A stretch of 64,000 bases of DNA from Rosellinia necatrix (taxonomy: Eukaryota; Ascomycota; Sordariomycetes; Xylariales; Xylariaceae): the NCBI GenBank assembly GCA_021209875.1, contig JAGYVD010000001.1, positions 1,240,001-1,304,000 of the forward strand, read 5' to 3'. Each line of letters starts with the position of its first letter. The first letter of the stretch is position 1. The translations under genes were made by a program, and so were the position numbers. The notes below the pieces were generated by a model that saw nothing but the letters and a program-made list of their open reading frames with translations, did no database searches and was not told the DNA's origin. Positions 46,306 through 50,045 of this stretch are shown in pieces.

Positions 46306-47034
46306 TTGTAATAGCCGCAAGGAGGGTTGAAGAAAAAGGGGGGGAAAGGGGAAAAGGGGAAAGGGGAGGGTGAGAAAGGAAGTTTGGTCGTTGGAGTTGG
46401 AATGGAATGGAGAGCAGAGCAAGGCAAGGGGGTGATGTGATCTCTTGGTGATACCGGTCTAGTCTACTTACGGTCGTGCGGTTGGTCAGCGTGTCAAAAC
46501 GGTAAACTCTGCCGGATTGATACCTGCCATTTCACGGCGTTAAGACGGTGGGATGGGGGGCTTCCGCGGCCTGAGGAGTCGCATACCCCCTTACAGCGGA
46601 AGCACTGGCTGTTGAAGATTAATACACACATCGCATGTGCAGTATGTACATCCACTTCCAGCCTATCACACTCGCGCATACTTAGCATGATCCACACAAT
46701 CAGGATTATACCTAGATATTGCTTTATAGGCACCTACACTAGGTGGCTGTGTCACAAGAGGCTAAATAGTAAGTAAGTAACGAGAGAAAAACCATGGCAA
46801 TTCTCTCACCTAGTCCAGAGATTGCAATTCTGGACAATCCTCATATTTGACTTGGGAACCCGTTTATTTAACACCACATCATTCTTTCTTATATATATGC
46901 ACCTACTTCACTATTCTGTTTATGGGATAGATATTTTATCAATTGGAGCCGTGGACCTCAGTCCCGCAGTGGGGTTCCCCGCAGTCGCCGAGGGGCTCAG
47001 ATACTTTAGCTTTCATAACGAGTTTCCACGCCAT
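46306..47034. other. Intergenic before the tRNA gene
   Basis: A G-rich purine tract at 46,336-46,378, no gene. Ordinary sequence leads up to the tRNA start at 47,035. Confidence 0.5.
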
Positions 47035-47041
47035 GACCGGT

Positions 47042-47052
47042 TGGCGCAATGG
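47042..47052 (+). promoter_or_regulatory. Internal A box of the tRNA gene
   Basis: TGGCGCAATGG, the conserved tRNA positions 8-19, matches the Pol III A-box pattern. It ends two bases before the first insert, so the insert spares it and only lengthens the A-to-B spacing. Confidence 0.75.
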
Positions 47053-47054
47053 TA

Positions 47055-47111
47055 GTACGTACTCACATTGATTCACTCTGTCACCCACTCATAACTAACA
47101 AACAATTGCAG
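47055..47111 (+). other. 57-nt spliceosomal-like intron in the tRNA D-arm
   Basis: Lies after tRNA position A21, before G22. It starts GTACGT, has CTAAC at 47,095-47,099 (branch adenine 13 nt before the end) and ends TTGCAG, like the introns of protein genes in this window. Its length, 57 nt, is also typical of them. Removing it restores the D-stem exactly. The boundaries could shift by one base (G at both ends), but the GT...AG placement is the natural one. Splicing is inferred, not shown. It could instead be an insertion that inactivates the gene. Confidence 0.7.
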
Positions 47112-47127
47112 GCGTATAGACCTCCTA

Positions 47128-47157
47128 CTTAAACACCATTCATTGGCTGTAGAGGTC
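47128..47157 (+). other. Canonical 30-nt tRNA intron at position 37/38
   Basis: Begins directly after A37 and ends before A38, the standard place for nuclear tRNA introns. Its 3' part contains AGAGG, which can pair with the CCU anticodon, as expected for the anticodon-intron pair recognised by tRNA-splicing endonuclease. Confidence 0.8.
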
Positions 47158-47171
47158 AGTCTAGGGTTGCG

Positions 47172-47182
47172 GGTTCGAGTCC
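47172..47182 (+). promoter_or_regulatory. Internal B box of the tRNA gene
   Basis: GGTTCGAGTCC, a perfect match to the Pol III B-box consensus GGTTCGANTCC, in the T-arm. Confidence 0.85.
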
Positions 47183-47198
47183 CGTGCTGGTCGCTTTC

Positions 47199-47206
47199 TT
47201 TTTTTT
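47199..47206 (+). terminator. Pol III terminator
   Basis: Eight T residues beginning six bases after the discriminator base of the tRNA, as for an active Pol III gene. Confidence 0.8.
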
Positions 47207-48164
47207 AGGTCTATTAATTGCATACATACATTATTCATTTGATTCGCCTCTTCACCCGGTCTTGCGAAATATGCGTAAACAAATATCTTGACAGTAGGTT
47301 CGTTTTTGATATGGTCTAGAAATCTATTTTTTATGCAGTCAATCTATCAATTACCCTACCTAAGTTTTAATGTTATGTAGGTAGGTACTTACTGTGCTTA
47401 CCGGTGGCTTCGTAGGTACCTCCCCCGGTTCGGTGGAGGTAGCTACACCCCCACTATCGATACTTCAATATCCAGTTAACGAACGAGGAATCGATGGTAA
47501 TTGTCGCTGTTTTACTATCTAGCATGGCAAATTTGTAGAAATTTTGCTAAAGTTGTTTGTAGTGAATGACTTATTTGCTTTTTTTTTTTTTTTCGCTCTT
47601 TTTAAAGTGGCCAGTACCTACCGCTAAACACTCAACCGGAGTTTGCCACATGTTTTCCCCCGCCGTGTATCAAGTAATTAGTGTAGATGCGCATGGGAAT
47701 CAGTCTGATTGTCTCTTAAGGCCCACCACCTAGCCGCGAACGAGTCAGATGATTGGTCCAGTCACCCCTCTGACCCACACATTCTATATAGCTAAGCTCC
47801 TTCCAACGCGAACGCGCCCACCAGCTAGCTTCCTGTCGCATTTTCTAAAGTTCGTCCAGCGACTGATCACCGTCCGAATGCTTACGAGGTACCTCTACTT
47901 TAACTTATAATTTATACATACTTTACCTAGGGCGTAACTGAGCTTCTAGCTAATTCACCACCTACTCTTCACAATACATTTCCATTGACTCTTACTTACT
48001 CTTGTACAAGAATACGTTGGTCATCGGCATCCTCCTTACGTTATCGAAACATACTGCGACCACAAACACGGGCACGAACCATTATTGCTGTTCGATATAT
48101 ATGCTGCCACACAAGTAGTCCACCTATTACGGCGGCCGATCAGGTTGTTCTCAAATCAACCACA
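47207..48164. other. Intergenic, promoter of the Bre2 gene
   Basis: No gene. Contains repeated GTAGGTAGGTAC / GGTACCTCC motifs at 47,375-47,450, a T-run at 47,579-47,594 and GAGGTACCTC at 47,886-47,895. The segment to 48,164 is the likely leader of the next gene. Confidence 0.5.
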
Positions 48165-50045
48165 ATGGCTACAAACGACGAGCTGCCAAAGAGGCAGATA
48201 ACGCCTGTTCCAGTGCCCGTGCTTCCATCCACCATTCCCCAGAAGCGAGTTCTGGAAGATGACCATGCGCCCTCCATCCCATCGCCGCTGAACCCGAACC
48301 AGAACCCAAACATGCAGTCGTACGATGACTCGAATACTATAGCCCGTGATAAGCCTACGCGGGCTAAAAAGGAGTCGGTGAAGAAGCGAGAATCCAAGGC
48401 TGGCGTGGGCATTGGAGTTGGCAGCGCTGCCCTGAACGGCGCTGGAGGCGGCGGTAGCGGCGGTGGCAGCATCGACAGCTCGAGGGCCACGCCTGATTCT
48501 AAGTTCGGGGAACGAATCCCCAGCGAGTCTTCACCCCTGCGATTCAAGCTCGCTCCTCCTAAGCCCTCCGATTTCGATCCCGCGCGCGGCCCTATATTCA
48601 CTCATCATCATGATGTTCCCAACCCCGATAGCTCTATCTTGCCTTTTTTTGAGACCTCAGAACAGTGAGTTACCTCTTCCCATCCTGGTATTCTGTCTCC
48701 TAAGCATTAATGAGACAGCTTCCGCTAACACGTGCCTGTCTCAAGCGTTTTTAACAAGAAGAGTTATCATTACTTGCACTGCATTGCCGATCCCATATTT
48801 CCCTCCTCTTTCTACTACCGTCAAACCGAGCCTGAACCTTACGGTCCCCACATTAGCTTCGAAGATGCCTCTACACACATGTACTTCGACCAGTCAGGGC
48901 GCCACGTAACGACAGATAAGGGGTTCCGGATGGCTAGGGCAAATGTGGCCGTGCGTGAGGGGACTTGGTATTGGGAATGCAAGATTACCAGGGGAATTCT
49001 AAAAGGCGACGCGGGGACCAAGAACGCGAGTAGTAGCAAGGACACGGCGTATCAGCCCGAGTCCCACGGCCATGCGCGCATAGGCTTCGCTAGACGAGAA
49101 GCGTCACTGGACGCCCCCGTTGGGTTCGACGCCTACAGTTACGGCCTGAGGGACGTCTCCGGCCAGAAAGTGCATATGTCCCGACCCAAGGACTTCTTCC
49201 CCCCGGGCGAAGATATGAGAGAGGGCGACGTAATTGGCCTAGAGATTCGACTACCATCAGAGCATCTACACCGGAAGATTGTTCAGGGGCAGTATAACCC
49301 CGCAGTGGACTTGAATGAGGAGGAGGAGGAGCGCGCTATGGAGGCTGCTAATATCATCCGCGATCGGATACCCATTCGGTTCAAAGCGCATATATACTTT
49401 GAGAAGATCGATTACCACACCACCAAAGAGCTAGAGGACCTGATGAACCCTTCGCCCGCGGGGACATCTAATCAAGCGAGTAATAGGCCAGGCGACAAGC
49501 CAAATCCAAACCACGCCGTCCCTGCCCTCCGCACTCTACCAAATTCATATATCAAGGTGTACAAGAATGGAGAATTAATGGGCACTCCATTCACAGACCT
49601 ATTCGCCTTCCTCCCCCCCGCATCTAAACCTCAGGTACAAGTCGGGGCACGAGAGGGTAAGGACGACGGCATGCTCGGATACTACCCCGCCATCAGCGTA
49701 TTCCGGGGCGGTGCGGTTGAGACTAACTTCGGGCCTGACTTCTGGTACCCTCCCCCCGGCTATGCCACAGCCCAGGGTGACACGGAGATGGTGGATGTGG
49801 ACGAAGACACGGTGCGCGTGAGCACACCGCGGCAGAGTATACTGCAAGCGACGCGGTCCATCTCCGAGCGATACGACGAGCAGATCGTCGAGGACATCGT
49901 CGCCGACGTGGTCGACGAGGTCGACTTCTGGATGCAGGACGGCGCGCGCGTGCTCGACCGCACCGGCGGGCGAGACGAAAAGGCGGAGCCGGTCGGTATT
50001 GCGCCTGCTAGCGAAGAGATTAAGGAGTTGGTCCAAGACGATTAG
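48165..50045 (+). CDS. bre2: COMPASS subunit Bre2/Ash2 (SPRY domain)
   Basis: Subunit of the Set1/COMPASS histone H3 Lys4 methyltransferase, nuclear; with Sdc1 it supports Set1 activity. Two exons, 48,165-48,664 and 48,746-50,045, with an 81-nt intron in phase 2, give 599 aa. The first 165 residues are disordered (Pro, Ser, a Gly-rich run). The SPRY domain then runs from about residue 185 to 490: GFRMARANVAVREGTWYWECKI, GHARIGFARREASLDAPVG, YSYGLRDVSGQKVHMSRP and GDVIGLEIRLP. Towards its end, NSYIKVYKNGELMG and GYYPAISVFRGGAVETNFGPDF are conserved in Bre2/Ash2L. An insert between the SPRY halves (LMNPSPAGTSNQASNRPG) is low-complexity. An acidic C-terminal helix follows. The ATG at 48,165 follows CAACCACA and is the first in frame. 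Confidence 0.93.

Follow-up and report, generated by a model that had tools for sequence, protein, structure and literature searches.

Can a nuclear tRNA gene carry an intron of the kind that is removed from mRNA by the spliceosome? The question is raised by a tRNA-Arg(CCU) gene of Rosellinia necatrix (gene A, 47035-47193 of the window, the whole 64,000-nt stretch analyzed, C1:1240001-1304000), in which an earlier note had placed an mRNA-type intron beside a normal tRNA intron. Upon re-checking, the sequence and coordinates given for this gene proved correct, and the claim is now supported at the sequence level by GT-AG inserts in three more tRNA genes (genes B, C and D) and by two intron-containing U6 genes found in the genome (49.1 Mb, 12 contigs). 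We hold with good confidence that gene A is a working Pol III tRNA gene interrupted by a spliceosomal intron of U2 type, the 57-nt insert, and that the inserts of the other three genes are to be read in the same way. This reading follows from the closing of the cloverleaf without the insert, splice signals in four of four inserts, the identity of exons among tRNA-Lys(CUU) genes, the absence of an intact CCU gene among those found, and the U6 introns. The features of gene A are as follows.

47035..47054, plus strand: exon 1 of tRNA-Arg(CCU), with the 5′ acceptor strand, 5′ D stem and D loop to A21; pairs with the 3′ part
About 47042-47052, plus strand: A box, inside exon 1
47055..47111, plus strand: 57-nt insert of GT-AG build, putative spliceosomal-type intron at 21/22
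47055-47060, plus strand: 5′ site of the insert, GTACGT
47095-47099, plus strand: CTAAC of the insert, presumed branch A at 47098; the insert's 3′ end is TTGCAG
47112..47127, plus strand: exon 2, with the 3′ D stem, position 26, 5′ anticodon stem, anticodon CCU and position 37
47128..47157, plus strand: ordinary 30-nt tRNA intron at 37/38, given by ARAGORN as (37,30)
47158..47193, plus strand: exon 3, position 38 to discriminator G73
47172-47182, plus strand: B box, GGTTCGAGTCC, inside exon 3
47199..47206, plus strand: run of eight T, resembling a Pol III terminator

No tRNA was found in the window by ARAGORN without intron mode or by Rfam cmscan at the gathering score, nor by cmscan of 46950-47300 with E up to 1, and the raw gene gave only a malformed tRNA-Ser in ARAGORN's intron mode. 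With 47055-47111 removed, ARAGORN called tRNA-Arg(CCT) with intron (37,30), and with 47128-47157 also removed it called an intron-free tRNA-Arg(CCT), in which 21 of 21 stem pairs are closed, four of them G-T. The cloverleaf, then, closes only when the insert is taken out in addition to the 30-nt intron, as had been claimed, and the A box, B box, T8 run and all stems that had been listed as signs of an intact gene are present. ARAGORN is lenient, accepting a 57-nt deletion as Arg(CCT) with (37,30) at 15 of 96 offsets (13 to 27 nt from the 5′ end), so that these calls locate the insert to the D arm and not to an exact nucleotide. A stricter D-arm score left two best among 71 products; GT-AG cuts yield two of the 71, and the 57-nt cut is one of the two best. 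Two registers of the insert lead to the same product, one of them GT-AG. An uninterrupted paralogue, tRNA-Arg(CCG) (L091; 72% identical to gene A), has the same D-arm layout and no insert. Among 453,998 segments of 57 nt (both strands of about 230 kb, the window included), just one combined GTRNGT, CTRAC and YAG; since the window was in the scanned set, that segment is insert A itself, and its intron-likeness exceeds chance. Folding of the whole precursor was uninformative (z 0.19). The next coding sequence downstream begins at 48165. Two proteins encoded on the two sides of the tRNA gene match R. necatrix at 99% and 100%, and a third protein is closest, among the matches listed, to Nemania and Xylaria (91%).

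A count of the other CCU genes had been set beforehand as a check. The genome was scanned with patterns that join a CCT anticodon loop to a downstream T loop, which gave 17 + 17 places and 31 more with T at position 32; 20 were run through ARAGORN (all 17 of the first set and three of the second) and the others were judged from the pattern match. None of the CCT-loop places is an uninterrupted tRNA-Arg(CCU), and patterns of such a gene also had no match in one genomic-contig and one viral-contig collection, as expected of those collections. The genome scan gave gene A and a single other gene, which is itself interrupted, so both CCU genes found (2/2) carry inserts, and the scan gave no intact supplier of the tRNA, which the earlier note had named as a finding that would count against its claim.

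L041, contig C11, minus strand: gene B, tRNA-Arg(CCU), no 37/38 intron

The 60-nt insert of gene B (GTAAGT...CTAAC...CACAG) lies directly after G19 (19/20), and its removal restores a tRNA-Arg(CCT) with 20 of 20 stem pairs; two registers give this product, one of them GT-AG. The raw gene scores 24.2 bits with the Rfam tRNA model, below the cut-off of 29. The best D-arm score is shared by 19 of 68 products, among which the spliced one is the sole GT-AG product; structure by itself is thus weak evidence and leaves the cut site of gene B unfixed. The nearest relatives in the tRNA set are Arg(TCT) for gene B (66%) and the Arg(CCG) gene for gene A, and the two CCU genes are 59% identical to each other. 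Given separate positions and no detectable similarity between the two inserts (p 0.55), two independent gains most likely account for A and B.

The other two interrupted genes were found through a tRNA family search (63 candidates scored, 61 matches listed), gene C as a 132-nt match whose T arm is interrupted by a large insert and gene D as a weak match that proved to be the 5′ part of a second interrupted tRNA-Lys(CUU).

L162/L203, contig C1: gene C, tRNA-Lys(CUU), 59-nt insert (GTGAGT...TTAAC...CAAG) at 52/53
L202, contig C10: gene D, tRNA-Lys(CUU), 84-nt insert (GTATGT...CTAAC...CTAG) at 52/53

Each of these inserts has four registers with the same product, one of them GT-AG. The exons are identical at 74 of 74 nt in all five Lys(CUU) genes (C, D and the uninterrupted L001-L003), while the inserts of C and D have no overall similarity (p 0.83) and one 9-mer in common, at the branch site (p 0.036). 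Exons held constant beside unrelated-looking inserts are best explained, as far as sequence comparison goes, by selection on the spliced product. Of ten pairs of 3′ flanks, that of C and D ranks first in similarity, though narrowly (30 identities, 0.77; the runner-up 28, 0.76), and their 5′ flanks gave no similarity signal. The simplest reading would be one gain, then duplication, then divergence of the intron with the exons held constant; the alternatives are that the same site was hit twice, recently and separately, or that gene conversion homogenised the exons, either of which would weaken the argument for function of C and D. Gene C departs from the other genes in ending with AAG and in having TTAAC in place of CTAAC. 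The B box of both genes is remade by the last G of the intron together with GTTCGACC. All five Lys(CUU) genes (L001, L002, L003, L202, L203) have a 3′ trailer in common, with an A-rich start followed by TCCYGATGC or close to it, and a predicted hairpin of differing sequence ahead of the T run.

The reading that survives best beside a spliceosomal one is that the interrupted genes are dead copies, silenced by their D- or T-arm insertions while other genes supply the tRNAs. In a 2014 review, eukaryotic insertions in these arms are described as lying mostly in one of many synonymous genes and are supposed to mark pseudogenes (PMC4090602). Three uninterrupted Lys(CUU) genes are present, so genes C and D need not work, and AGG codons might be read through wobble by Arg(UCU), which has an ordinary gene (L038). 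The genome does contain truncated tRNA genes: on C7 a decayed 3′ remnant of a gene like A (L010 1501-1559; 86% over 59 nt, without the 5′ half) and two Leu(TAG)-like 3′ pieces without 5′ halves (L040 and L134, near a B box). We nevertheless regard dead copies as improbable, since the Arg(CCU) genes have no intact synonym among the genes found, stems are intact and promoter boxes whole in all four genes, the Lys exons are unchanged while their inserts diverged, and the inserts bear full intron signals, for which a dead insertion has no reason.

Those signals follow one build. The extended 5′ site and 3′ end are GTACGT and CAG in A, GTAAGT and CAG in B, GTGAGT and AAG in C, and GTATGT and TAG in D, all within the GT...AG rule, and the branch-site motif (CTAAC in A, B and D; TTAAC in C) fits CTRAY or comes near it and stands at a usual distance from the 3′ end, as in U2-type introns. 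The presumed branch A lies exactly 13 nt from the 3′ end in four of four tRNA inserts (47098 of the window; L041, L202, L203), as against 11 nt in two U6 introns and 17 nt in two mRNA introns; the placing of GTACGT, CTAAC and TTGCAG in spliceosomal positions was confirmed for insert A. Its size had been likened to that of local mRNA introns, and the likeness holds: the inserts measure 57, 60, 59 and 84 nt (A-D), compared with U6 introns of 53 and 60 nt and with two nearby mRNA introns of about 112 and 81 nt, the former in a GH gene and bounded by protein homology, the latter in a SPRY gene and placed by motif, the homology alignment having run through the intron. Counting CTAAC-linked GT hexamers in 224 kb gave 639 compared with a shuffle mean of 640, and hence no local intron consensus. 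None of the insert sites (21/22, 19/20, 52/53 and 52/53) is the canonical 37/38. All four inserts lie between an intact A box and an intact B box, T runs stand 3′ of all four genes, and removal of the insert leaves in each the layout of a functional gene, with cloverleaf, A box, B box and terminator.

Other classes and origins of intron were also considered. Group I or II self-splicing introns have a large catalytic core of hundreds of nucleotides; the inserts are 57-84 nt long, and no Rfam match was obtained in the window stretch. U12-type introns are marked by an ATCC-type 5′ site and a TTCCTTAAC-like branch site, and these signals were absent from the four inserts upon inspection. Inserts A and B each matched only themselves in a genome search, which revealed neither an introner-like family of many near-identical copies nor a donor intron for either. 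That either insert is kin to the other or to a U6 intron was likewise rejected: of six comparisons the U6a-U6b one alone was clear, and the best p for an insert was 0.026 (B against U6b). No junction repeat at A or B rose above shuffles (5′ against 3′ junction similarity, p 0.52 and 0.59), which speaks against tandem duplication. Reverse splicing, which the earlier note proposed as the origin, would fit the clean boundaries of the inserts but gained no direct support from the donor search or the junctions of A and B.

The two U6 genes found (47 candidates scored) both have an intron after GAAGAT, of 53 and 60 nt and with GTGAGT...TACTAAC...CAG (L160 1501-1653, minus strand; L161 1501-1660, plus strand). 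Each intron holds a B-box-like stretch (GTTCGAACC and GGTTCGAGTC), which raises the possibility that the U6 promoter draws on the intron. Introns of mRNA type are described in U6 of fission yeast and other fungi and in U3 snoRNA of fungi (PMC10484740 and PMC5832005), and a 2017 paper gave U3 and U6 as the sole small structured RNAs for which frequent interruption was known (PMC5832005). The present inserts resemble these in being spliceosomal-type introns of a small structured RNA, U6 being also a Pol III transcript, but they interrupt a tRNA, a class of RNA for which dedicated splicing enzymes exist. Ascomycete nuclear rDNA contains mRNA-type introns. That case, too, is an mRNA-type intron in a non-coding gene that is not transcribed by Pol II; it differs in that rRNA is a Pol I transcript, whereas a tRNA intron must fit an internal Pol III promoter.

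A second alternative is that the tRNA splicing endonuclease removes the inserts from their non-canonical places through a bulge-helix-bulge (BHB) fold, as in archaea and the red alga Cyanidioschyzon merolae. In archaea, C. merolae and nucleomorphs the D and T arms of tRNAs do contain introns, sometimes accompanied by another at 37/38, and for tRNA-Ile(UAU) of C. merolae introns are given at 12/13, 37/38 and 53/54, those of the D and T arms being thought to leave first (PMC9602550 and PMC4090602). In our genes, A and C have four of four central-helix pairs in the GT-AG register, and one non-GT-AG register of D has three of four central pairs and three inner pairs. A 4-bp central helix with both flanking helices exists in no register of A-D, the best (central, outer and inner pairs) being (4,1,0) for A, (3,0,0) for B, (4,0,1) for C and (3,0,3) for D, and the occurrence of GT, CTAAC and AG in four of four inserts would be left unexplained. 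The archaeal and C. merolae introns are removed by BHB and tRNA endonuclease, whereas here we find GT, a branch site and AG with no full BHB; nucleomorph tRNA introns are 3-24 nt long, compared with 57-84 nt here. Removal by this route is accordingly very improbable. The canonical nuclear intron at 37/38 has its counterpart in the 30-nt intron of gene A, from which the 57-nt insert differs in position, signals and presumed enzyme.

How widespread such inserts are was judged from 161 B-box places, which gave 134 distinct sites in the scan; the 27 places outside it comprise 13 tRNAs of the family search that were examined later, three on the mitochondrial contig and 11 left out (two tandem clusters on C2 and C10 and one further C10 place). 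The first de-introning scan, blind to T-arm inserts (97 sites without a proper ARAGORN call, 3890 GT-AG cuts), gave calls in A, B, L020 and L119, and the second, which allowed T-arm cuts (98 sites, C added by hand, 4194 cuts), gave the same sites and C. From their sequences L020 and L119 were judged to be chance calls, because there is no clear 5′ splice consensus and L119 belongs to a tRNA-like repeat family. Control dinucleotide pairs also gave three to six ARAGORN calls each in the first scan and three to 12 in the second, partly in the same genes, so such calls carry little weight by themselves. Apart from A-D, 79 ARAGORN calls (80 less the mis-typed D) show no insert outside the anticodon loop, with the limit that ARAGORN can take an insert elsewhere for an anticodon-loop insert, as it did with D, and that some others are probably mis-typed. 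None of the 10 ordinary tRNA introns of at least 36 nt that were inspected is GT-AG. Inserts of the new kind thus occur in four of about 83 nuclear tRNA genes examined, and more interrupted genes may exist in this genome, since tRNAs with other T loops were visible only through the family search. ARAGORN misses or mistypes all four genes, and the Rfam tRNA model detects only C and, of D, the 5′ part; genes of this class may thus go unnoticed elsewhere. That ordinary sequence was read as intron by permissive programs, or that the assembly is in error, is extremely improbable even though ARAGORN accepts many deletions and calls control cuts, because the Lys insert is fixed by identity to uninterrupted copies independently of any tRNA program (four registers, one GT-AG), intron-like segments of fixed length number about 2-4 per million windows, and one build is common to four loci on three contigs.

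Taking the inserts as spliceosomal introns, we infer from sequence their transcription, removal by the spliceosome, the order of steps, function and the number of gains. The transcript of gene A, made from the A and B boxes, would be spliced first by the spliceosome, restoring the D arm, after which tRNA endonuclease and ligase would remove the 30-nt intron at 37/38 from the refolded body; the order would follow because the endonuclease cut requires a folded tRNA body. Gene B (19/20, no 37/38 intron) and genes C and D (52/53) would take the same spliceosomal route, and in C and D the insert would be removed ahead of end processing because RNase P and tRNase Z require the T arm. Spliceosomal introns would have entered tRNA genes of this lineage at three distinct sites and been accepted in the stretch from A box to B box, a placing that leaves the internal promoter unbroken. 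A lengthened spacer between the two boxes is compatible with type 2 Pol III promoters. On balance we lean toward a fuller version of this account, with repeated entry of spliceosomal introns between the two boxes and a supply of Arg(CCU) wholly dependent on the spliceosome, the window gene needing the endonuclease too, so that AGG decoding would be tied to splicing capacity.

The usual view is that tRNA and mRNA splicing are separate, each with its own enzymes, and a 2026 review of non-canonical splicing takes tRNA splicing to be independent of the spliceosome (PMC13149111). No nuclear tRNA that needs both machineries was known to the earlier note, and our search of the open PMC literature, at the level of titles and the starts of abstracts and with subscription papers and preprints outside its scope, likewise gave no report of a spliceosomal intron in a nuclear tRNA gene. 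Should these genes be functional, tRNA maturation would be among the tasks of the spliceosome, at least one pre-tRNA would have to pass through both machines in sequence, and the supply of a tRNA could hinge on how active the spliceosome is. For the study of intron gain the set also offers a test bed: the insertions are at three sites, one isoacceptor has two of these, and the Lys genes have uninterrupted sisters with identical exons within one genome.

Two further observations concern the genome at large. The repeat family that includes L119 is dispersed and tRNA-like, with an A box (GGCCTAGCGG), a B box (GGGTTCGATTCCC) and a T run and no normal cloverleaf, and looks like a Pol III repeat by its sequence; its sites include L017 (two), L031, L097, L100, L104, L110, L112, L113, L119, L125 and L127, and number 11 by a strict pattern and more by eye. 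On the 188-kb mitochondrial contig C12, tRNAs recur about 114.7 kb apart, so the mitochondrial genome is probably a circle of about 115 kb that was assembled more than once round.
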